In this document: in pieces, positions 1 to 28,380 of the stretch
How positions within the stretch are numbered: position 1 is the stretch's first letter
Layout of the letters: every line of letters starts with the position of its first letter
Virus record (IMG/VR): IMGVR_UViG_3300010885_021549
Coordinates: 1 to 28,380 of that record
DNA: 28,380 nucleotides
Origin: a virus
Direction: 5' to 3' (one strand)
The notes under the pieces: model-generated
The model's input: only the letters and a program-made list of their open reading frames with translations
What the model was told of the DNA's origin: nothing
Databases searched by the model: none
Translations under genes and position numbers: made by a program

Positions 1-201
1 ACAACAGGTGTTACAGGTTCAGTTGCTTACTTAAATCACAAAGGTGCTTCTCAATCATTATATAATATGACTGTATTAGATATAGATAGTTCAGGTGGTA
101 ATACATTATGGGTATATAAACCTGTTTCATTAACAAATACTACTAACTGGAATACATTAAATGCTAATAGCTTACAATCAAGTAATATAAATATGAGTTA
201 A
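1..201 (+). CDS. C-terminal end of a tail fibre-like protein (5' truncated by window edge)
   Basis: Frame 1 is open from the first base to a TAA at 199-201 and encodes 66 residues. The first residues read TTGVTGSV, which keeps a glycine every third residue as in a collagen-like stalk. A globular-looking end with NTLWVYKPVS and an Asn/Ser-rich tail follows. The gene at the right edge of the window is an open collagen-like fibre gene, so this piece is most simply the C-terminus of that same gene on a circular or permuted genome. Direct joining of the two edges is out of frame by one base. The link is inference; it could also be the end of a separate fibre gene. Confidence 0.6.
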   Translation, partial: TTGVTGSVAYLNHKGASQSLYNMTVLDIDSSGGNTLWVYKPVSLTNTTNWNTLNANSLQSSNINMS

Positions 202-1613: not shown

Positions 1614-1643
1614 TATATTATATATCATTATTACTCTTATGCA
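1614..1643 (-). repeat. Inverted third copy of the phage intergenic repeat element
   Basis: These 30 nt are the exact reverse complement of 23291-23320 and share 23 nt with the copy at 23199. The element sits in the 169-nt gap between the ATP-grasp and tail-completion genes (1531-1699). That gap also holds two hairpins and a purine stretch (AAAGGAGG near 1592) but no convincing gene. In its own orientation the element is followed by TACTT, CTCC, TTTACTC and TACTTT blocks that recur in the same order after the copy at 23289. A phage promoter, operator or replication element is likely. Confidence 0.75.
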
Positions 1644-1671
1644 CTTATTTAAAAAACAAATCAAAACATAA

Positions 1672-3655: not shown

Positions 3656-6600
3656 ATGAGATATGAATTAATAGTAGAAGCAAATGGATATACAAGTATA
3701 AACGGTTTAGCTTCAATAACTATAGCTAATGGTGGTTATGGTTGGAGTATAGGTAGCACTTTTTCAATAGGCACAGGTGGTGCTGTTGGTGTAGTAAGTA
3801 CATTATCAACACCGACTGGTTCATCGTTCATAATAACTATAGATGCTATTGGTGGTAGTGGTGATATAACAGCTTCAAGTATTTTAACAGCTGGTACTGG
3901 TTACACTGTTGGAGAGTATTTCTCTTTATTAGGTGGTGCAACATTAGCTATTGGAATAGTGTTAGCAATAAATGGTAGTGGTGGCATAACAAGTTATGGT
4001 ATTTTAACTGGTGGTTCTGGTTACACTCTTAATGATGCCTCATATGGACAACCTATTGCTTCTGTAACAAGTGCTGCTGTAACTATTATAGGAGCTGGAT
4101 ATGTTATTGGAACAACTTATACAACTTCTGGTGTTGGTTTCTTATTAACAGTAATTGGAGCTACATTAAATTACAATAGTAGTGCTTATTTAGACACCGA
4201 AAATGAGATTGATAGTTCTGTATCCTTAAACTATAACATCGCTGATATAAGTGATATAAGCTCAAAGAATAGTGGTTATTCAAAGACTATAACATTACCT
4301 GATACAAAGAATAATAGAGAAGTATTTCAATATATTTTTGGTATTAACTCTGATTCAACATTTGATGCTGGTAAAAAGAGTAGAGTATGGGTAGTTAAAG
4401 ATAGTGTGACTCAGTTTGAAGGTTATTTACAAATGACTAATATAATTTATGATAATAATACTAATAAAAATTATTATGAAGTAATTATTTATGATGATGG
4501 TAATGGTTTATTTGTAAATATAGGAGAAAGTTATTTAAGTGATTTATCTTTATCACAATATAATCACTTATATGGTGCAACTGCAATTTCTGCTTCTTGG
4601 ACTAAAGATTATACTAATGGGTATTATTATCCATTAATAGATTATGCATATCCATTAGATTATGATATAGTAAATGGTGGTGGAATTGGTTCATCAACAC
4701 AATCATTACAAATTACTAATTTTGCACCAGCTACTTATTTGAAGGTTATAGTAGATCAGATTTTTGTTGAAGCTGGTTATAGTTATACATCTAATTTCTT
4801 TAATAGTGATTTTTATAAACAATTAGTTGTACCTTTTTGTAATAAAACATTAACACCTTATTTACCTAATTTAGTTGTTAATTCAACTAACCAATTATTT
4901 TTAGCTCACTCAAGCACAACACAATCTTGGTATGGTAGTGATACAACATCATTTCCAACAGATTTCTTTTGGGGTAATATGTTTGCTAATGTGGCTGATT
5001 ATAATCCAAATGGATTTTACAATACAGCTACGCACTCTTATACAAATACATATACAAATCCTATTATACAAAGATTTGGTGTTGATATAGATATAGCGTT
5101 TAACTCTGCTGGTGCGTCAACTGGTTCACCTTGGTTATCAGCTACTGATACAATTATAGTATCATTAAAAAGAAGTTTAGATACATCTGGCGCACCTGTT
5201 GCTGGATGGGGAGATATGCCGAATCTATCACAAGTTCAACCAGGTGGTTGGCCTGCTGTTACTTTTGGTGGCATCGATTATATAATAATAGCTGATGCTT
5301 CGGGTTATTTAGCACCTGGTATATCGTTTACACATAGTTCTTATACTTATCCATATATGTGGAAAGTAAGTGGTACTATATATAGCGATTATTTAACAAC
5401 AAATCCTATAAGAATAGGTGAGCAAGTAAGATTTTTCTTTGAAAGATCTACTGGTGCATCAGGTTACACAAACACATTTGTGGGTGTTACTCCATTAAAT
5501 CACATATTCTCTGAGGTAAGCACAACAATAGTAGTACCAGGTTATTCTAAGATTGATATACCATCTTCTTTACCTGCTAATGTAAAGCAAAAAGATTTAA
5601 TGTCTTCAATAATGAAAATGTTTAATTTGTATTTTGTACCTGATAAATATAATCCTATTAATCTAATTATAGAACCAAGAGATTACTACTACTCAAAGTA
5701 TCAAGTTGTTAAAAATTGGAGTAAAAAATTAGATTTAATGATGCCTATTAATAGTCAAATAGCTTCTAATACACAAAAAAAGACTAACTTATTTACATAT
5801 AAACAAGATAAGGATATATATAATAGTAGTTATGAAACTAATACTAATAAAGTATATGGTGAATATAAATATGAAATTAATAATGATTTTATTAATGATA
5901 TAAATACTATCGAACCTATATTCTCACCTACTATAATAGATAAATTAATTGGTAGCACAGAAATATATTTACCATCTATTGCTAATTTGAATAATGGTAA
6001 CTATGTTAGACCTGACGGTATGAATATAAGATTGTTATATAAGAAACCACAGACATTAACTACAGATACTTTTTATTTTAGTGGACATACTTATTCATAT
6101 TATCCATATGCTGGACCTTGTGATAACCCATTAACACCAACTGTTAGCTTAAACTTTGGACAAGTTAGTTCTTTTTATGCTGGATTTACAGATACGGTTA
6201 ATAACTTATTCTATAATTATTGGCAAAATGCTATGACTGAATTGAGTAATAAAAATAGTAGAATTATTACCGCTTATTTTAACTTAAATGCTGTTGATAT
6301 ATCACAATTTAATTTTAGCGACCTTATATTCTTTACACTAAATGGTATTGATGGTTATTATAGAGTTAATAAAATTGTAGATTACAATCCATCACTTAAT
6401 CAAACTACAAAAATAGAATTAATAAAAGCTGATAATTTTGGTATTAATCCTGCTACAAGTTCGGCAGCTTATATACCTGAATTAAGTCCTCCAATTACAA
6501 TAGCTACTAATTATAAACCTATGGTTGGTAATATAAGTTTATCGACTACCAATACTATCAGCGATTCAACTGGTGTTGTTGTGGCTGGTAAGAGCAATAA

Positions 6601-7423: not shown

Positions 7424-9766
7424 ATGGCTGAAAATAAGAAAATAATAATAGAAGTAGACACCAAAGTAGATGATAAAGATTTAGATAAAGTTTCTGGTAA
7501 CGTCAAGAAAATTGGTGATGGTGCTAGTAAAGCAAAGAAAGGTCTTGATGGTATGTCGGATGGTGCTAAGAAATTAACAACATCCTTCAAAGAAGTCACT
7601 AAGGCTATGGGCTTCATTAAACTATTGGAGATGCTTAAAGATGTCTTTATGCAAAACCAAAAGGTTATGGACCTTGTAGCTACTGCTATGGGTGCTATTA
7701 ATATAGTATTTAACCAAATTGTTGATGTTATTACAAAAGTTGTAGAAAAAGTTGGTGCATTAACTAATGGTTTTGAAGGCACTACTAAAGTTATTAAAGG
7801 TGTTTTTGGCATAGCATTAGATTCATTAAAACTCCAATTCTATTCTATTAAATTAGTTATACAAGAATTACAATTAGCTTGGGAAAACTCATTTTTTGGT
7901 GGTAAAGATCCTGCTAAAATTAAAGAATTAGGTGATAAAATAGATGAAACCAAAGGTAAAATCAAAGAAACTGGTGAAGACATTATTAAAAATGGTAAAC
8001 AAGTTGTTGATAATGCTGGTAAAATGGTTAATGAGTTTGGACAAGTAGTAGAGGGTATTGTTGATGGTGTATCTAAGATTGATCCTTCTAAAGCTTTAGA
8101 TCAATCTAAGGCATTAGTTGCCGCATTAAAGGCTGCTAAAATGGCTACTGCTCAATTGGGTGGTGTTGTTGCTGAATATGAAAGAAAAGAAGAAAAGTTA
8201 AGACAAACCAGAGATGATGCAACCAAATCTATTAAAGAAAGAATAGAAGCAAGTGATAAATTAAAGGGTATTATTAAAGATGAGTCTAAGGCACAATTAG
8301 AATTAGTTAATCTTAATATAAAGGTTGCGCAATTAAACTATAATATAAATAAATCAGATGAGAATGCTGTTGCTTTAAGAGTAGCTAAGAATAAAGTTAA
8401 AGAAGTTGAATCACAAATTGAAGGTAAAGTTACTGAGCAAAAAATGGCTGGTATTGCTATTACTAAAGAACAAGTTGATTTAGATAAATCTGTTATTAAA
8501 GGTGCTCAAGATAGAACTACTAAACAATTAGAGTTTAGTCAATCTTTAATGGATGATAATGTTGCTAAATTAGAGCAACAAAAGGCTAATTTAGAAACAT
8601 TAAAAACTACCGAATTAGTTTATCTTAAAGATAATATAGATCGTTACAAAGAAGGCACACAAGCAAGAGTTGATGCTGAACAAGAATATGCTAATAGAAA
8701 ACAAGAGATAGATAATCAAATTGTTGCCACTGATAAAGCTATTGTTGATAAGAACAAAGCTCTATATAAGAAATCATTAGATGATACATTAGCGGCATTA
8801 CAGGCTAACTTAGATGATATTAATAGAACTAATGTTTTAGGATATAATATAAAGAAAAACTTAATAGAAAAGGCTTGGAAAGAACAGAAGAAGATTTTAG
8901 AAGTTGCTTATGAGGAAGAAAAGAAATTAGCTGGTGATAACTTAGAAGCTTTAATTGCGTTAAAAAAGAAATATGATGCTCAAGTTAAAAAAGCGGATGA
9001 TGATAAAAGACAACAAGATATAGATAATTTTACTAAACAAGTAAATCAATATAAAGAATATGCTAATCAAGTATTAGGTATAGCTACTGATATAGGTGCT
9101 ATATTTGATAATTTAGCAAACCATAAAATTGCTCAATTAGATAGAGAAAATGCGGCATTAGAAAAACAAACATCTAAACAAGCTGAGGAATTAGATAGAC
9201 AAAGAGCGCAAGAAGATGCTAATATAGAAGCTTCTAATATGAGTGCTGAACAAAAAGCTGCGGCACATAAAGCATTAGAAGGTAGAACAATAGCGGAAAA
9301 AAATGCTAATGAAAAGAAAAAGTTTGAAATAGAATTAGCCAATTTTAATGCTACTGAAAAATTAAAAAAGCAAGCATTTAATAGAAATAAAGCATTTCAA
9401 ATAGCTGGAGCTGTTATTAATACAGCGGCTGGTATAACTATGGCATTAGGCACTATGCCTCCACCATATTCTTTTGTTGAAGCTGCTTTAGTTGGTGCTG
9501 CTGGTATAGCACAAATCGCTAAAATAGCAAGTACAACTTATGAAGGTGGAACACCACCAGAGTTAAACACTTTATATGCTTCTCCATCAACAGCGACTAC
9601 ACCATCTTCATCAGGCCCATCTGCTGGCGCAACTGGTAATTTGGGCCAATCACAATTAAAATTACAAAACGATCAATTCAAATATATGAAAGTTCAAGTA
9701 GCTCAAGGTGATATAAGAGATACAATTGGTAAAGTAGAGTTAATAGAAAATAGATCTAAACATTAA
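7424..9766 (+). CDS. Tail tape measure protein
   Basis: This 780-residue protein fits a siphovirus tape measure, which sets tail length and is held by the tail chaperones before tube assembly. It is mostly helical, with long Lys/Glu/Ala/Gln-rich coiled-coil stretches (about 235-430 and 450-680). A hydrophobic segment lies near residues 60-130. The C-terminus has an alanine-rich region (AFQIAGAVINTAAGI, then a GTMPPPYSFVEAALVGAAG stretch) typical of tape measures. By the usual rule of about 1.5 angstroms per residue the tail would be near 115 nm. The two chaperone frames lie downstream, whereas in most phages they precede the tape measure. Confidence 0.85.
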   Translation: MAENKKIIIEVDTKVDDKDLDKVSGNVKKIGDGASKAKKGLDGMSDGAKKLTTSFKEVTKAMGFIKLLEMLKDVFMQNQKVMDLVATAMGAINIVFNQIVDVITKVVEKVGALTNGFEGTTKVIKGVFGIALDSLKLQFYSIKLVIQELQLAWENSFFGGKDPAKIKELGDKIDETKGKIKETGEDIIKNGKQVVDNAGKMVNEFGQVVEGIVDGVSKIDPSKALDQSKALVAALKAAKMATAQLGGVVAEYERKEEKLRQTRDDATKSIKERIEASDKLKGIIKDESKAQLELVNLNIKVAQLNYNINKSDENAVALRVAKNKVKEVESQIEGKVTEQKMAGIAITKEQVDLDKSVIKGAQDRTTKQLEFSQSLMDDNVAKLEQQKANLETLKTTELVYLKDNIDRYKEGTQARVDAEQEYANRKQEIDNQIVATDKAIVDKNKALYKKSLDDTLAALQANLDDINRTNVLGYNIKKNLIEKAWKEQKKILEVAYEEEKKLAGDNLEALIALKKKYDAQVKKADDDKRQQDIDNFTKQVNQYKEYANQVLGIATDIGAIFDNLANHKIAQLDRENAALEKQTSKQAEELDRQRAQEDANIEASNMSAEQKAAAHKALEGRTIAEKNANEKKKFEIELANFNATEKLKKQAFNRNKAFQIAGAVINTAAGITMALGTMPPPYSFVEAALVGAAGIAQIAKIASTTYEGGTPPELNTLYASPSTATTPSSSGPSAGATGNLGQSQLKLQNDQFKYMKVQVAQGDIRDTIGKVELIENRSKH

Positions 9767-10628: not shown

Positions 10629-11774
10629 ATGAAAAAAAGTAAAATTAGGATGACCGATTTACCAATCTATGATATAACTATTGAGGAAGATAGTAATCAA
10701 GGTATTCAATTGGTATCATTAGTTAAAGATCCAGCTATTGAAGTTAAAGGTATGTATTTTTCTAATCTTGATTTATCAACCGAACAATCTTATGAATTCA
10801 AAGCTATACCAGAACAACAAATAGTTTGTGGCCCAGCTATGATTCCCAACCGTAAGATTCTTCGTAAGAACCAAAATGGAGATATGTATTATGTTCGTTT
10901 TAGTGAAGAAGTTATTACTCAAATGGTTGATAAGTTTAATAGAGAAAATAATAATAAAGCTATTAATGTTGACCATACAGAGATAATGGCACCTGCTTTT
11001 ATTAGAGCAAACTGGCAAATTGAAGATTCTAACTATGATAAGTCTAAATTATATGGTTTTAATTTACCAAAGAAATCTTGGTTTATTGAAGTTAAAATTG
11101 AAGACAAAACTTTTTGGGAAAGTGAAGTAAAAGATGCTAATAGATTTTCTTTTTCTATTGAAGGATTAATGGGTCAAGAATTAGTTGAAATGGTTGAAGA
11201 ACAATTATCATTTGATGAGTTTATTGATTCATTAAGCGATATGGAACTATTAGAATTAATGTCTTTTGCTGACGAACCATATAATTTACCACCTGATAAT
11301 CCAGATTCAACTTGGCATACACATCCAAATTGTAAATGTTCTTTCAAAGGCTCAACTTGGACAAGCGTTCCATCAGGTGATGGTTTATATCCTTGTGATA
11401 AATGTTTAGATATGGCTAAACAATATAGAAAGGCACAAAGAAGTGGTAAAAGAAGTGGTTATTCTGCTATACAAAATATATCATTTGATTATGATGGTAC
11501 TTTATCTGAACCAAAAGTTCAAGCAATAGCCGAAGATTGTATATTAAATGATAATAATGTTTATATAATTACTAAAAGAAGTCCAACAGATAGTAAAGAA
11601 GTTTTTGATACAGCTATGAAATTAGGTATTAAAAAAAGTAATATAATTTTTACTAATGGTGAACCAAAATGGTCTTATTTAATAGATTGTAATATAGATA
11701 CACATTATGATGATATGCAAGATGAAATAGAACAAATGAAACAAAAAACCTCTACTAAATTAATTAAAGTATAA
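10629..11774 (+). CDS. Capsid maturation protease (XkdF-like) fused to a HAD-like domain
   Basis: This 381-residue protein lies just before scaffold and major capsid genes. Residues about 25-185 resemble the XkdF-type putative serine protease, with a VDHTE motif (H116) and a RFSFSIEGLM strand (candidate S174 or S176). Such enzymes cleave scaffold during capsid maturation. Residues about 215-262 carry a WHTHPNCKC motif (like the HPNCRC end of Mu F/SPP1 gp7 head-morphogenesis proteins) and a C256-x2-C259 pair, probably zinc-binding. Residues 284-370 form a small HAD-like domain: FDYDGT (D287, D289), IITKR (motif II), K347 and DD at 361-362. Head proteases do not normally carry this domain. No stop or frameshift separates the parts. 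Confidence 0.7.
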   Translation: MKKSKIRMTDLPIYDITIEEDSNQGIQLVSLVKDPAIEVKGMYFSNLDLSTEQSYEFKAIPEQQIVCGPAMIPNRKILRKNQNGDMYYVRFSEEVITQMVDKFNRENNNKAINVDHTEIMAPAFIRANWQIEDSNYDKSKLYGFNLPKKSWFIEVKIEDKTFWESEVKDANRFSFSIEGLMGQELVEMVEEQLSFDEFIDSLSDMELLELMSFADEPYNLPPDNPDSTWHTHPNCKCSFKGSTWTSVPSGDGLYPCDKCLDMAKQYRKAQRSGKRSGYSAIQNISFDYDGTLSEPKVQAIAEDCILNDNNVYIITKRSPTDSKEVFDTAMKLGIKKSNIIFTNGEPKWSYLIDCNIDTHYDDMQDEIEQMKQKTSTKLIKV

Positions 11775-21171: not shown

Positions 21172-21396
21172 TTAGTCAATTTTGAATAATTGTTTAATTA
21201 TTTCTATTCTAAATCTCAAATCGTCTTTTAATTCAAGCTTCTCCTTTAATGAGAGATTATTAGTTTTTTTTGCTTTATATTTATCTTTTTTTCTTTGATT
21301 GAAACATATTTTACAATTTGGAAAGTAAGCTTCTTTTGTTCTTAAATAGTAATCAGTTAATTCTTTTTCTATCTTACAGGTTTTACATATTTTCAT
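21172..21396 (-). CDS. Small zinc-ribbon protein
   Basis: This 74-residue protein has two CxxC knuckles (C4-x2-C7, C28-x2-C31) and a basic segment FNQRKKDKYKAKK, then a charged helix LKEKLELKDDLRFRIEIIKQ. The form K-x-C-x2-C, a short loop with an aromatic residue, then C-x2-C is a common small phage zinc finger. It overlaps the HNH gene by 4 nt (ATGA), so the pair is co-translated. The HNH protein also has CxxC knuckles, but the two are not obviously homologous. Function unknown. Confidence 0.6.
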   Translation of the reverse strand: MKICKTCKIEKELTDYYLRTKEAYFPNCKICFNQRKKDKYKAKKTNNLSLKEKLELKDDLRFRIEIIKQLFKID

Positions 21397-22121
21397 TTTA
21401 ATTTATATTCTCCATTTATTTTATAATATATCTCACCATAATAATCATAAACATTATCGAATAGATACATAGCTTCTCTTTCAATCTTTATTTGTTTTTT
21501 AAGATTATTCCAATAATAATTGTTAATTAGTTTATAATAATCATTAACAGATAATTCCATAGCATTAATTTTATTATGTTCGTTATTGTGGCATATATTA
21601 CATAAGGTAATTAAATCTTCATCTTTTTCATTATAAATGTTTTCATAACTAATATGATGGCAATTTAAGTTTAATTTACTATCACAAATAACACATTTAT
21701 TATTATCTCTTTTATATATTCTATTTCTTATTTCTATCCACTCTTTAGTTTTAAGGTATTCTTTATAATTACTTAATAATGGTTGTTTAATTATTTTTTC
21801 TGTTTTTATTATAGACATTAATTGTTCATCCTTATCCATTTCTTTAATTATTTTCTCTAAATTAAAGTCTTTATTTATCTTATTTATTAGTGTATTTTTT
21901 GTTTTACCAGTTATAATTGTATAATCATCTGGTATTTCCTCATTATCATCAATTAATTTATAATTTTTATTATATCTTACTAACACAGACATTTTTGCTG
22001 CTAAGAAAATTGATTCTTTTTTATAATTATTATATACATATACACAATAATTAATAATATAATCATCACTTTTGCTTTTTGTTGTATATACCACTTTTAA
22101 TTTAGTATTAATTATTCTCAT
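21393..22121 (-). CDS. HNH endonuclease
   Basis: This 242-residue protein contains a clear HNH domain: C143-x2-C146, H155-H156 (NCHHISYEN), and C174-x2-C177 with H178 and H182 (LCNICHNNEH), the zinc-coordinated beta-beta-alpha-metal nuclease site. Residues 1-110 are a separate Lys/Asn/Ile-rich region with no clear homology. Such enzymes are often mobile homing endonucleases, though some phage HNH proteins work with terminase in DNA packaging. Here the gene lies in the replication-like block, directly after the polymerase-like gene, not beside terminase, so a homing or host-DNA-cutting role is more likely. The N-terminal region is the open question. Confidence 0.88.
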   Translation of the reverse strand: MRIINTKLKVVYTTKSKSDDYIINYCVYVYNNYKKESIFLAAKMSVLVRYNKNYKLIDDNEEIPDDYTIITGKTKNTLINKINKDFNLEKIIKEMDKDEQLMSIIKTEKIIKQPLLSNYKEYLKTKEWIEIRNRIYKRDNNKCVICDSKLNLNCHHISYENIYNEKDEDLITLCNICHNNEHNKINAMELSVNDYYKLINNYYWNNLKKQIKIEREAMYLFDNVYDYYGEIYYKINGEYKLK

Positions 22122-22122
22122 A

Positions 22123-23100
22123 TTATTTTATTATTTCTTTTTTAAATCTTAAATTAGTATATTTATTTTGGCAATACTCTAAAACTCTATCAGCATCCTT
22201 TTCTTTAATTATTACACAATCATGAACAGGTAAAGCAAAATCACAAGGTATTTCATTTAATATATCATCTATCCATATTTTACTTTCTATTCTTTGTAAT
22301 AAAGAGCCACCGTTTTTATAATTTCCAGATTTTATTTGCTTTAAGAAATAACTTACAATAGGAAATAAACTATGTATTTTAAAATTAGGAACATATCCAT
22401 TACCATTTATCCAGTGCATAAATAAATCTTTTGCTTCTTCTCTGCTATTCATTTCTAATTTATAAGCAACCTCTCTGTAAAAATCTTTCTCATTATCAAA
22501 AATCTCATTATAATTATTATCTATAACATTTTTTTCTTTTAAATAATTATAAAGTATTCTTGGTTGACTACAAATAGCATCTATTGTATAATAACCACCA
22601 AAATCTTGTTTGTAATTTCTTATTGCACTATGATGAACTCTTCTACCAAATGAATCTCTACTTATTGTTACATCAAATCCTGTTTCTATTAACGATTGTT
22701 CTATAATTTCATACCATCTATTATGTCTATTAGACAACATATCAACCTCAACTTCACTACCTATTTCTGTGTTAATTAAAAACTTATATTTAGCACATAT
22801 ACCTTTATCTTTATTATAACTCTTAGTCCATTTTGTTGAGAATATATCATTTTCATCTTGATAAGCTCTCTTATAATAAGTTATTATATTCTTTTCTATA
22901 AAATATGTTAATATATTATTATACCTACAATTAACACTCATTAAATATGTTGAAGCTACTGGGAAATAACCTTGACTATTCTTTAAATGACTCTTTAACC
23001 ATAATGCCGTATATATCTTTATAGCATTTATTTTAACCGTTTTGTTATAAGGCATTTCATATATTGCGTTCTTTACTTCTTGTGGAATTATTACTTTCAT
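22123..23100 (-). CDS. Divergent family A-like polymerase with N-terminal winged-helix-like region
   Basis: This 325-residue protein carries three segments in the order and form of family A polymerase motifs. Motif A: YYTIDAICSQPRIL (D174). Motif B: R220-x3-K224-x2-F227 then G233/G235, close to Pol I R754-x3-K758-x3-F762. Q269 in LLQRIESKIWID fits the Q849 region of Pol I, and VHDC (H293-D294) fits motif C. The A-to-B distance (50) matches Pol I (53). The N-terminal 80 residues look like a winged helix (TALWLKSHLK, then a helix and NIITYYKR wing). No exonuclease domain is seen. It is the first gene of the leftward block and the only replication-like gene. It may be a DNA or RNA polymerase; the assignment is by motif reading only. 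Confidence 0.55.
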   Translation of the reverse strand: MKVIIPQEVKNAIYEMPYNKTVKINAIKIYTALWLKSHLKNSQGYFPVASTYLMSVNCRYNNILTYFIEKNIITYYKRAYQDENDIFSTKWTKSYNKDKGICAKYKFLINTEIGSEVEVDMLSNRHNRWYEIIEQSLIETGFDVTISRDSFGRRVHHSAIRNYKQDFGGYYTIDAICSQPRILYNYLKEKNVIDNNYNEIFDNEKDFYREVAYKLEMNSREEAKDLFMHWINGNGYVPNFKIHSLFPIVSYFLKQIKSGNYKNGGSLLQRIESKIWIDDILNEIPCDFALPVHDCVIIKEKDADRVLEYCQNKYTNLRFKKEIIK

Positions 23101-23160: not shown

Positions 23161-23198
23161 CTTATATTATAGGCACTTTTTTAATAAAAGTTTTAATA

Positions 23199-23248
23199 AC
23201 TGCATAAGAGTAATAATGATATATATATAATAATTATACTATTACTTG
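23199..23248 (+). repeat. Phage intergenic repeat element, copy 1
   Basis: ACTGCATAAGAGTAATAATG and the following ATATATA are repeated at 23289. A second block, ATAATAATTATACTAT (23227-23242), also recurs at 23323-23338. The copies start 90 nt apart. The unit ends in ACTTG; TTG at 23246-23248 is followed after 17 nt by TATGTTTT (23266-23273), loosely like a Bacteroidetes promoter. An iteron-like origin or promoter/operator role fits the divergent intergenic position. Confidence 0.8.
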
Positions 23249-23288
23249 TTTATTCTACATATTATTATGTTTTATAGATAATTAAAAT

Positions 23289-23343
23289 ACTGCATAAGAG
23301 TAATAATGATATATAATATACTATAATAATTATACTATACTTG
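23289..23343 (+). repeat. Phage intergenic repeat element, copy 2, with promoter-like sequence
   Basis: This is the second direct copy, with 8 extra nt between its two conserved blocks. It ends in ACTTG; TTG at 23341-23343 is followed after 20 nt by TACTTTTT (23364-23371), an imperfect TAnnTTTG box. Rightward transcription toward 23525 is therefore plausible. An exact 30-nt reverse-complement match is at 1614-1643. Confidence 0.8.
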
Positions 23344-23524: not shown

Positions 23525-24076
23525 ATGTCTTACACACCACAACAAATTATTAAAATGAACGCTTATGAAACATCAGAGATTACTTGTAGAAGGATGTTTA
23601 GTGTTTTTAAGAAACAATACTCAAATAACAAAATAGATTTGAAGATACAATCAACATTACCACAAACTATATATGATGCTAATTTAAGATATACCGATAC
23701 TAATAATAAAGTTAGAAAATGTCAGGTTGAGTTTAAGGTAAGATATAAATTATATGACGAAATGTTTATAGAACCAAAAAATGTTAAACATGCTAATCTA
23801 TGTAATTATGAATACCTTTATATTAACTTTTATGACGATTTAAGCACTCAAAAAAGACATATGTATATTTGGAGTTCATATGATATAGACTTCAATAATT
23901 TAGATACCATTTCAAAAGAAATAGGCATTAGTGAAGTAGAAGATAAAGGAACTAAAACATCATTAAGATACCTATTACCTATTTCAATTGCGTCAGAACA
24001 TTATGTAACAGATATAACTGAATTATGGCCTGAATTACAAACACAAGAATATATAGATATGCTATTCTCTAAATAA
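23525..24076 (+). CDS. PD-(D/E)XK nuclease-like protein, first gene of rightward block
   Basis: This 183-residue protein has a segment resembling a PD-(D/E)XK core: D51 in IYDANLRYTD, then a strand with E69-x-K71 (QVEFKVR), then K85/K88 and NYEYLYINFYDDL, MYIWSSYDI. The D, about 18 residues, E-x-K strand, and a following beta strand with aromatic residues is the usual order of that nuclease fold. No partner gene is seen, so it may act in DNA repair, host-DNA degradation or as an early protein. The AT-rich leader TTATAAAAAGAAATATATT precedes the ATG, and a terminator follows. The nuclease call is tentative. Confidence 0.4.
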   Translation: MSYTPQQIIKMNAYETSEITCRRMFSVFKKQYSNNKIDLKIQSTLPQTIYDANLRYTDTNNKVRKCQVEFKVRYKLYDEMFIEPKNVKHANLCNYEYLYINFYDDLSTQKRHMYIWSSYDIDFNNLDTISKEIGISEVEDKGTKTSLRYLLPISIASEHYVTDITELWPELQTQEYIDMLFSK

Positions 24077-27286: not shown

Positions 27287-28380
27287 ATGAGCGCAAATAC
27301 TCCCTCTTTACTTAAATTAGTTGAACTTATACAGTTAGTTAGTCAAAATCATATGATGGTGGCTGACTTTCGTTTCGGTCCATTATGGAATAGAAATGCT
27401 TTAAGAGACTTAAAGGCACCTTATGTATGGTTAGAAGAAGCTGGTAGTAGAATTACTATGGGTAATGGCTCACATAAGACAGCTTTATATACCTTCAACC
27501 TTTATTGTATGGATAGAATACAAAAAGATGAAACTAACTATGACGAAATCTTATCCGATACAAAGTTTATATTAGATACAATCGTTACTGAATTAGATCA
27601 ACATCCTTTATTTGTGGCGTTGGGTTTATCTTTTGATGCTAATAGTGATGTATCATTTGAACCTGTATATGAAGAAACAGATACTAATTCAAATGGACAC
27701 TCTTGTTCTATTACATTAAGATATCCTATTAGATATACACCTTGTAATGTACCTATTAAACCATTAGACGGTATAACATATTCATTAAATAATAATGTTT
27801 ACAATTATCAAATCAGTGGTGCAACTGGTCCACAAGGACCACAGGGTCCTCAAGGATATAATGGCTCAGATGGTGTTCAAGGTCCTCAAGGTGTTCAAGG
27901 TTCAAATGGTAATCAAGGCTCACAAGGACAAGGATTTACATATCAAGGCAATTGGATAGACACAACAACATATAATCCATATGATGTAGTAACATATCTG
28001 GGTTCAACATATATAACACCAACTATTAATATAAATAGTATACCTGTTTATGATAATTCTAATCCAGATTGGTATTTATTTACAAGTATAGGCGCTCAAG
28101 GCGCTCAAGGTGATATGGGTCCACAAGGTTTCCAAGGTGTACAGGGTGTTCAAGGTCCACAAGGTGTACAAGGTGTACAAGGTGTTCAGGGTATTCAAGG
28201 TGCTACTGGCTCAACTGGTGCTACTGGCTCACAGGGTCCACAAGGTGTACAAGGTACACAAGGTGTTCAGGGTGTTAAAGGTGCTACTGGCTCAACTGGT
28301 GCTACTGGCTCACAGGGTCCACAAGGCCCACAGGGTGTCCAGGGTATTCAAGGAGCACAAGGCTTCCAAGGTGCTACTGG
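27287..28380 (+). CDS. Tail-terminator-like domain fused to a collagen-like fibre (3' truncated by window edge)
   Basis: The frame is open from ATG 27287 to the window end (364 codons plus 2 nt, no stop). Residues 1-175 look like a small tail-terminator-like or adaptor fold (ADFRFGPLWNRNAL, then EILSDTKFILDTIVTEL and a SCSITLRYPIRYTPC strand). Residues 178-216 and 269-364 are Gly-X-Y repeats rich in Pro, Gln and Val (GPQGVQG). Residues 217-268 resemble a CBM5/12-type module (GNWIDTTTYNPYDVVTYLGS, ending NPDWYLF), which often binds carbohydrate. The whole looks like a fibre anchored at the tail and used for attachment. Probable C-terminus: bases 1-201. Confidence 0.8.
   Translation, partial: MSANTPSLLKLVELIQLVSQNHMMVADFRFGPLWNRNALRDLKAPYVWLEEAGSRITMGNGSHKTALYTFNLYCMDRIQKDETNYDEILSDTKFILDTIVTELDQHPLFVALGLSFDANSDVSFEPVYEETDTNSNGHSCSITLRYPIRYTPCNVPIKPLDGITYSLNNNVYNYQISGATGPQGPQGPQGYNGSDGVQGPQGVQGSNGNQGSQGQGFTYQGNWIDTTTYNPYDVVTYLGSTYITPTININSIPVYDNSNPDWYLFTSIGAQGAQGDMGPQGFQGVQGVQGPQGVQGVQGVQGIQGATGSTGATGSQGPQGVQGTQGVQGVKGATGSTGATGSQGPQGPQGVQGIQGAQGFQGAT
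28199..28326 (+). repeat. Direct repeat of 47 nt within the collagen-like region
   Basis: A 47-nt block (28199-28245) recurs exactly at 28280-28326, a period of 81 nt (27 residues, nine triplets). It encodes GATGSTGATGSQGPQG. Such repeats allow slippage and recombination and can change fibre length. They also complicate assembly, which may be why the window breaks here. Confidence 0.85.

Follow-up and report, generated by a model that had tools for sequence, protein, structure and literature searches.

The transposon-virus polymerases (TV-Pol; Iyer, Abhiman, Aravind 2008) have been predicted to serve as both primase and polymerase of mobile elements and small DNA viruses (PMC2579912). They are proteins of 400-600 aa with an all-helical N-terminal domain, and their minimal superfamily A core combines a conserved hairpin Arg, an RRM-like palm with two catalytic Asp, a fingers Asp together with an RxxxK motif and a thumb of two antiparallel helices. 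They have no exonuclease, and their genes are linked to a D5-like helicase, resolvase, integrase or transposase but not to a nuclease (PMC2579912). CCPol-MP of SCCmec elements, a family A enzyme counted among the TV-Pols, primes DNA de novo (PMC7581432, PMC10061031); CCPol is close to Pol I, requires the OB-fold partner MP for priming and has a helicase adjoining. The divPolA2 proteins of Rheinheimera Barba, Vibrio and related phages are also short (~430 aa), with a palm core, an unrelated N-terminal domain and neither exonuclease nor usual thumb, and in barbaviruses they occur beside a regular replicative polymerase (PMC11348598). ColE2 Rep, a plasmid protein, is both initiator and plasmid-specific primase; it acts with two iterons and relies on host enzymes for all further steps (PMC4980987).

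Here we describe a 325-aa polymerase-like protein encoded at 22123-23100 (-) of a viral DNA stretch of 28,380 nucleotides, analysed in full and referred to as the window. The gene opens a leftward gene block, and the ORF and its homologues confirmed both this and the placement of D174, R220-x3-K224-x2-F227, Q269 and H293-D294 given in the preliminary description. Both ends of the window (1-201 and 27287-28380) lie within a gene with a collagen-like GPQG repeat, inside which the viral genome was probably cut at assembly, and thus the window is probably near a whole genome. Given that three relatives of 29.6-30.9 kb (G793, G796 and G797) have terminal repeats, 122, 123 and 55 bp in length, phage genomes of that size appear to be complete; the carriers of the gene are a lineage of small, ~30-kb Bacteroidota phages. 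Directly downstream of the polymerase gene lies a gene for an HNH protein (21393-22121, -), the HNH part of which matches the IscB model NF040563 below its cut-off (E 1e-9). On the other side, a divergently transcribed gene at 23525..24076 (+) possibly encodes a PD-(D/E)XK-type nuclease. This was read by eye from ..VEFKVR.. in the window gene and ..IEVKVRD.. in genes of similar look near the polymerase gene of several relatives, and family searches gave no match.

Searches with the 325-aa protein gave no meaningful match among Pfam (PF00476 included), NCBIfam, PHROGs and PDB sequences, and tblastn found none in 50,697 phage records or 72,556 plasmids, so that relatives were gathered by iterative pattern scans. 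Scanning of IMG/VR yielded a short family with no fewer than 31 distinct homologues in phages, 37-72% identical, whose PHROG matches were marginal. Genome searches found a family member in the Mucilaginibacter achroorhodeus genome, in a prophage that also encodes a 688-aa integrase-like protein (by eye), and in one further genome of that same family. All 31 homologues carry the motif A catalytic Asp D174 (22579..22581, -), the motif B residues R220 and K224 (R220-x3-K224; 22429..22443, -), F227 and the hairpin arginine R154 (22639..22641, -), and Q179-P180 and D206-F207-Y208 are likewise invariant. One contig stops short of the C-terminal residues; in the other 30, H293 and D294 of motif C (22219..22224, -) are present throughout and Q269 in 29. 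D174 and D294, on whose conservation the preliminary description had made its reading depend, are therefore invariant wherever the sequence reaches them.

A profile of the short family further retrieved homologues of 387-686 aa in Bacteroidota genomes, on a Hymenobacter plasmid and in a megaphage. The two groups matched each other with a profile E-value of 3e-24 over 167 columns, and the reverse search from the long relatives recovered the prophage member (E 3.5e-10). In these distant homologues (n=21) R154, K224 and D294 are kept in every sequence, D174 in 20, and R220, Q269 and H293 in 19 each, which argues that the motifs are not due to chance. A profile of the long relatives matched 16 of 395 Bacteroidota genomes, one of the 16 matches being the short prophage protein. 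The long polymerase-like proteins of 440-690 aa (L040-L047, L148-L165 and L048; also on the Hymenobacter plasmid) are uncharacterised and matched no family model above cut-off. They resemble TV-Pols in size and setting; a serine-recombinase-like gene lies near one of them and restriction-modification-like genes near others (by eye).

The short-family profile alone had no significant match to PolA or T7 RNA polymerase. When short and long sequences were joined, the profile aligned with 30 cellular PolA proteins over 178 columns with motifs A, B and C aligned; the score was 38.2, whereas none of 60 column shuffles exceeded 24.6. This places the family in superfamily A, as a distant branch. The alignment also sets Q269 opposite the Q of the cellular PolA 'IQGTAAD' stretch, in agreement with the earlier reading of this residue as Pol I-like. 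At motif A it sets the SQ, rather than D174, against D705, and its register at this point is therefore approximate.

An AlphaFold2 model computed with a 31-sequence alignment (pLDDT 87.5, pTM 0.62) consists of a winged-helix-like N-terminus and a palm/fingers core; a first prediction, based on just five close relatives, reached only pLDDT 51 and was set aside. The N-terminal domain comprises residues ~1-81 (22858..23100, -), with helices 7-14, 20-39, 50-56 and 60-69 and a strand 73-81. The core, residues ~143-325 (22126..22674, -), is delimited by the model and by homology to the long relatives over residues 143-308. Within it, the model shows a strand 171-175 closed by motif A, helices 178-214, an O-like helix 220-232 bearing R220 and K224, helices 242-283 and a strand-turn-strand 290-298 holding H293-D294, which is the arrangement of a family A palm. 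The protein appears to lack a thumb and the greater part of the fingers, and it has no exonuclease domains.

In a Foldseek search of the PDB, the first 23 matches were all family A DNA polymerases, among them apPOL (5dkt, E 2.6e-3), Bst (1lv5), Taq, T7 DNAP and Pol theta. The best match had a probability of 1.00 and a TM-score of ~0.4 on the query; these PDB matches stayed at E >0.001 and covered the core only, and chance was rejected as their explanation since the first 23 were all family A polymerases. Ranked after these came MarR, TFIIE and La winged helices for the N-terminus (E ~0.09 to 1). Among viral models, E-values went down to 1e-12, with matches to a 403-aa 'putative DNA polymerase I', a Rheinheimera Barba phage DNA polymerase and a virophage helicase/primase/polymerase, the virophage polymerase fold matching at E 9e-3. 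A miniature family A-like polymerase with a winged-helix-like N-terminus, as the preliminary description had proposed, is thus borne out by a predicted palm, by the Foldseek matches to family A DNA polymerases and, more weakly, by the winged-helix matches. The polymerase identity of the protein is well supported.

Compared with cellular DNA polymerase I, the protein has motifs A, B and C in register in the profile alignment and matches the fold, but lacks its exonuclease domains and, as it appears, the thumb and most of the fingers, and does not match PF00476. Its likeness to TV-Pol extends over the minimal core without exonuclease. R154 fits the hairpin Arg described for TV-Pol (PMC2579912), D174 and D294 occupy strand positions that fit the palm in the model, and D206 and R220xxxK224, invariant in the short family, would correspond to the fingers Asp and RxxxK, D206 being equated with the described Asp by inference. 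It is, however, shorter than TV-Pols and starts with a winged helix instead of an all-helical domain. As candidates for the two-helix thumb of TV-Pol, the model offers just the helices 123-126 and 128-140 ahead of the hairpin. No D5 helicase is fused to it or recognised nearby, and in one relative only (L001) a DnaQ-type 3'-5' exonuclease gene (9041-9529, +; PF00929 E 4.7e-20, phrog_192 E 7e-38) lies 63 bp downstream of the polymerase gene, a nuclease linkage that TV-Pols do not show. Given the helicase link not seen and this one nuclease link, we call the protein TV-Pol-like rather than a TV-Pol member. MAP_030 of phage Ma-LMM01, a likely TV-Pol chosen by its position and used as a single yardstick, had no significant profile match.

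With divPolA2 the protein shares shortness, a palm core, an unrelated N-terminal domain and the lack of exonuclease and usual thumb. In profile comparison the short family did not match it significantly (E 0.3); the long-relative profile reached E 9.5e-6 (HMMER, one-sequence target), with motif C in register. Motif C of the divPolA2 example compared reads VFDEV, without the His of H293-D294. The new aspect is a small enzyme standing alone, without the regular polymerase that accompanies divPolA2 in barbaviruses. CCPol likewise brings a family A catalytic core to a mobile element, but it retains the equivalents of E710 and F762, both ribonucleotide-excluding residues of Pol I. At these positions the 325-aa protein appears to have Q179 and M228, so that the usual gate seems to be absent and its substrate may be either dNTPs or NTPs.

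The surroundings of the gene were surveyed for other replication functions in the window and in related contigs, 20 of which were compared and all of which carry the polymerase gene, having been picked for it. The window had no PF00476 or SSB match, SSB families had no match in 17 contigs, and no DnaB-type helicase was found in 15 related contigs. A strict P-loop pattern gave a single match in the window, in a tail-like protein. In the three complete relatives the terminase was the sole credible match, next to chance-like ones in a structural ORF and a 58-aa ORF, and across the 20 contigs the matches fell in terminases and were scattered in structural, methylase and other ORFs, among which inspection by eye showed no helicase-like protein. 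No alternative initiator was recognisable in the window or the complete relatives. The 325-aa protein is thus, as first described, the only recognisable replication protein of these phages as judged from their sequences, in which small ORFs without relatives might still encode a primase or SSB.

The analysis also revealed a conserved 28-bp element, ATATCATWAYTACTCTTRYNCACTTTT, upstream of the polymerase gene in at least 14 contigs, mostly 105-112 bp and otherwise 44-91 bp before the start codon. In the window it occurs twice at this place, at 23195..23222 (-) and 23285..23312 (-), ~112 and ~202 bp before the start codon, and a third copy at 1622..1649 (+) lies in the gap ahead of a tail-block gene at 1700. 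The underlying 26-bp repeat has two copies before the polymerase gene and one at 1620-1645; by chance none would be expected. The 28-bp profile, built from upstream sites, then found the element before the polymerase gene in contigs outside the build (G791, G792, G795, G002, G801, G803 and G804), and a shuffled-sequence control gave one match at score >=16 in 1.06 Mb; in about six contigs the profile detected no copy before the gene. Some genomes carry extra copies away from it, not always in the sense of transcription, and those of G801 and G804 are antisense to the flanking genes. A promoter is thus not the simplest reading of the element, and it was set aside.

Given these results, we regard the protein as a divergent minimal TV-Pol-type superfamily A polymerase with a putative DNA-binding winged helix of its own, and lean somewhat towards an initiator-primase/polymerase as its most likely role. 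As the sole recognisable DNA-copying protein, it may initiate genome copying unaided, with the host left to complete the work. We infer its function as follows: the winged helix would bind the repeated 28-bp element ahead of its own gene, the palm domain would synthesise de novo the first primer or nascent strand at this region, a putative origin, and the host replisome (helicase, SSB, PolIII/PolI) would then take over. This would resemble ColE2 Rep by functional analogy, with one protein for both roles, repeats and a hand-over to the host, and CCPol-MP shows that a family A palm is capable of de novo priming. Against this reading count the copies of the element away from the gene in some genomes, the PDB matches at E >0.001 over the core alone and the short family's lack of a significant PolA match. 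CCPol moreover needs MP to prime; searches for a helicase or an SSB family gave no match here, and small neighbours of no known fold might include a partner. Among the three functions suggested in the preliminary description, the fused initiator-polymerase fits best, given the conserved repeats ahead of the gene and the lack of any further recognised replication protein; a minimal replicative polymerase is less likely, and the single-subunit RNA polymerase has lost ground. A stronger form, which we hold only tentatively and consider rather doubtful, is a one-protein replicon, where a 325-residue enzyme with a gate-less family A palm recognises its own repeats, primes and starts DNA synthesis and is the only phage-encoded replication protein in the lineage.

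That the protein is instead the main replicative DNA polymerase, extending host-primase primers and copying the whole genome without acting as initiator, is unlikely. Its full catalytic motifs, the lack of any other recognised phage polymerase and the exonuclease gene adjoining in one relative would suit such a role, but the winged helix and the upstream repeats point to site-specific action, and the apparent lack of a thumb and of most of the fingers argues against processive synthesis.

Still less probable is a single-subunit RNA polymerase that transcribes phage genes from promoters holding the 28-bp element. Both in the window and in G803 the element, which is asymmetric, precedes the polymerase's own gene and also a tail gene. 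Motif A of the protein reads D-x-x-C-S and motif C HDS, which is closer to T7 RNA polymerase than to Pol I, and the protein seems to lack the Glu steric gate. The short family divPolA2 has moreover been proposed as a possible RNA polymerase (PMC11348598). Nevertheless, no T7-type or mitochondrial RNA polymerase appeared among the best 50 PDB matches, which DNA polymerases head, the profile had no match in T7 RNA polymerase, and the protein is far smaller than the 883-aa T7 enzyme. The antisense copies in G801 and G804 and the DnaQ-type exonuclease gene after the polymerase gene in one relative also speak against transcription, and a conserved, weakly sigma-factor-like protein in 15 of the 20 related contigs (Sigma70_r4_2 E 0.007; e.g. 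L121 5723-6247, +), not found in the window, points to the use of host RNA polymerase.

The least probable reading is that the protein acts in repair, recombination or regulation and merely has a polymerase fold, in a phage replicated by the host through another initiator. In its favour, divPolA2 proteins, which occur beside a regular replicative polymerase, have been proposed for repair (PMC11348598), and the Hymenobacter plasmid encodes an annotated replication initiation protein besides its long homologue. Against it, no other initiator was recognisable in the window or complete relatives, and the gene is in all 20 contigs compared, though these were picked for it.

As an initiator-polymerase, the protein would rank among the smallest enzymes of family A and would illustrate how small an outfit suffices for a phage to set off its own replication. 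Its family forms a bridge between cellular PolA, TV-Pol-like proteins of mobile elements and small phages. Given that no Pfam or NCBIfam model or PDB sequence matches it meaningfully and the PHROG matches of its relatives are marginal, the carrier phages look free of replication genes. Being so compact, the protein lends itself to direct tests of origin binding and de novo synthesis. A candidate partner is a small conserved protein of ~70 aa (..RKYIYKDIS..), encoded in seven contigs and near the polymerase gene in several of them, for example at 4603-4812 (+) in L121 and 11314-11520 (+) in L007.
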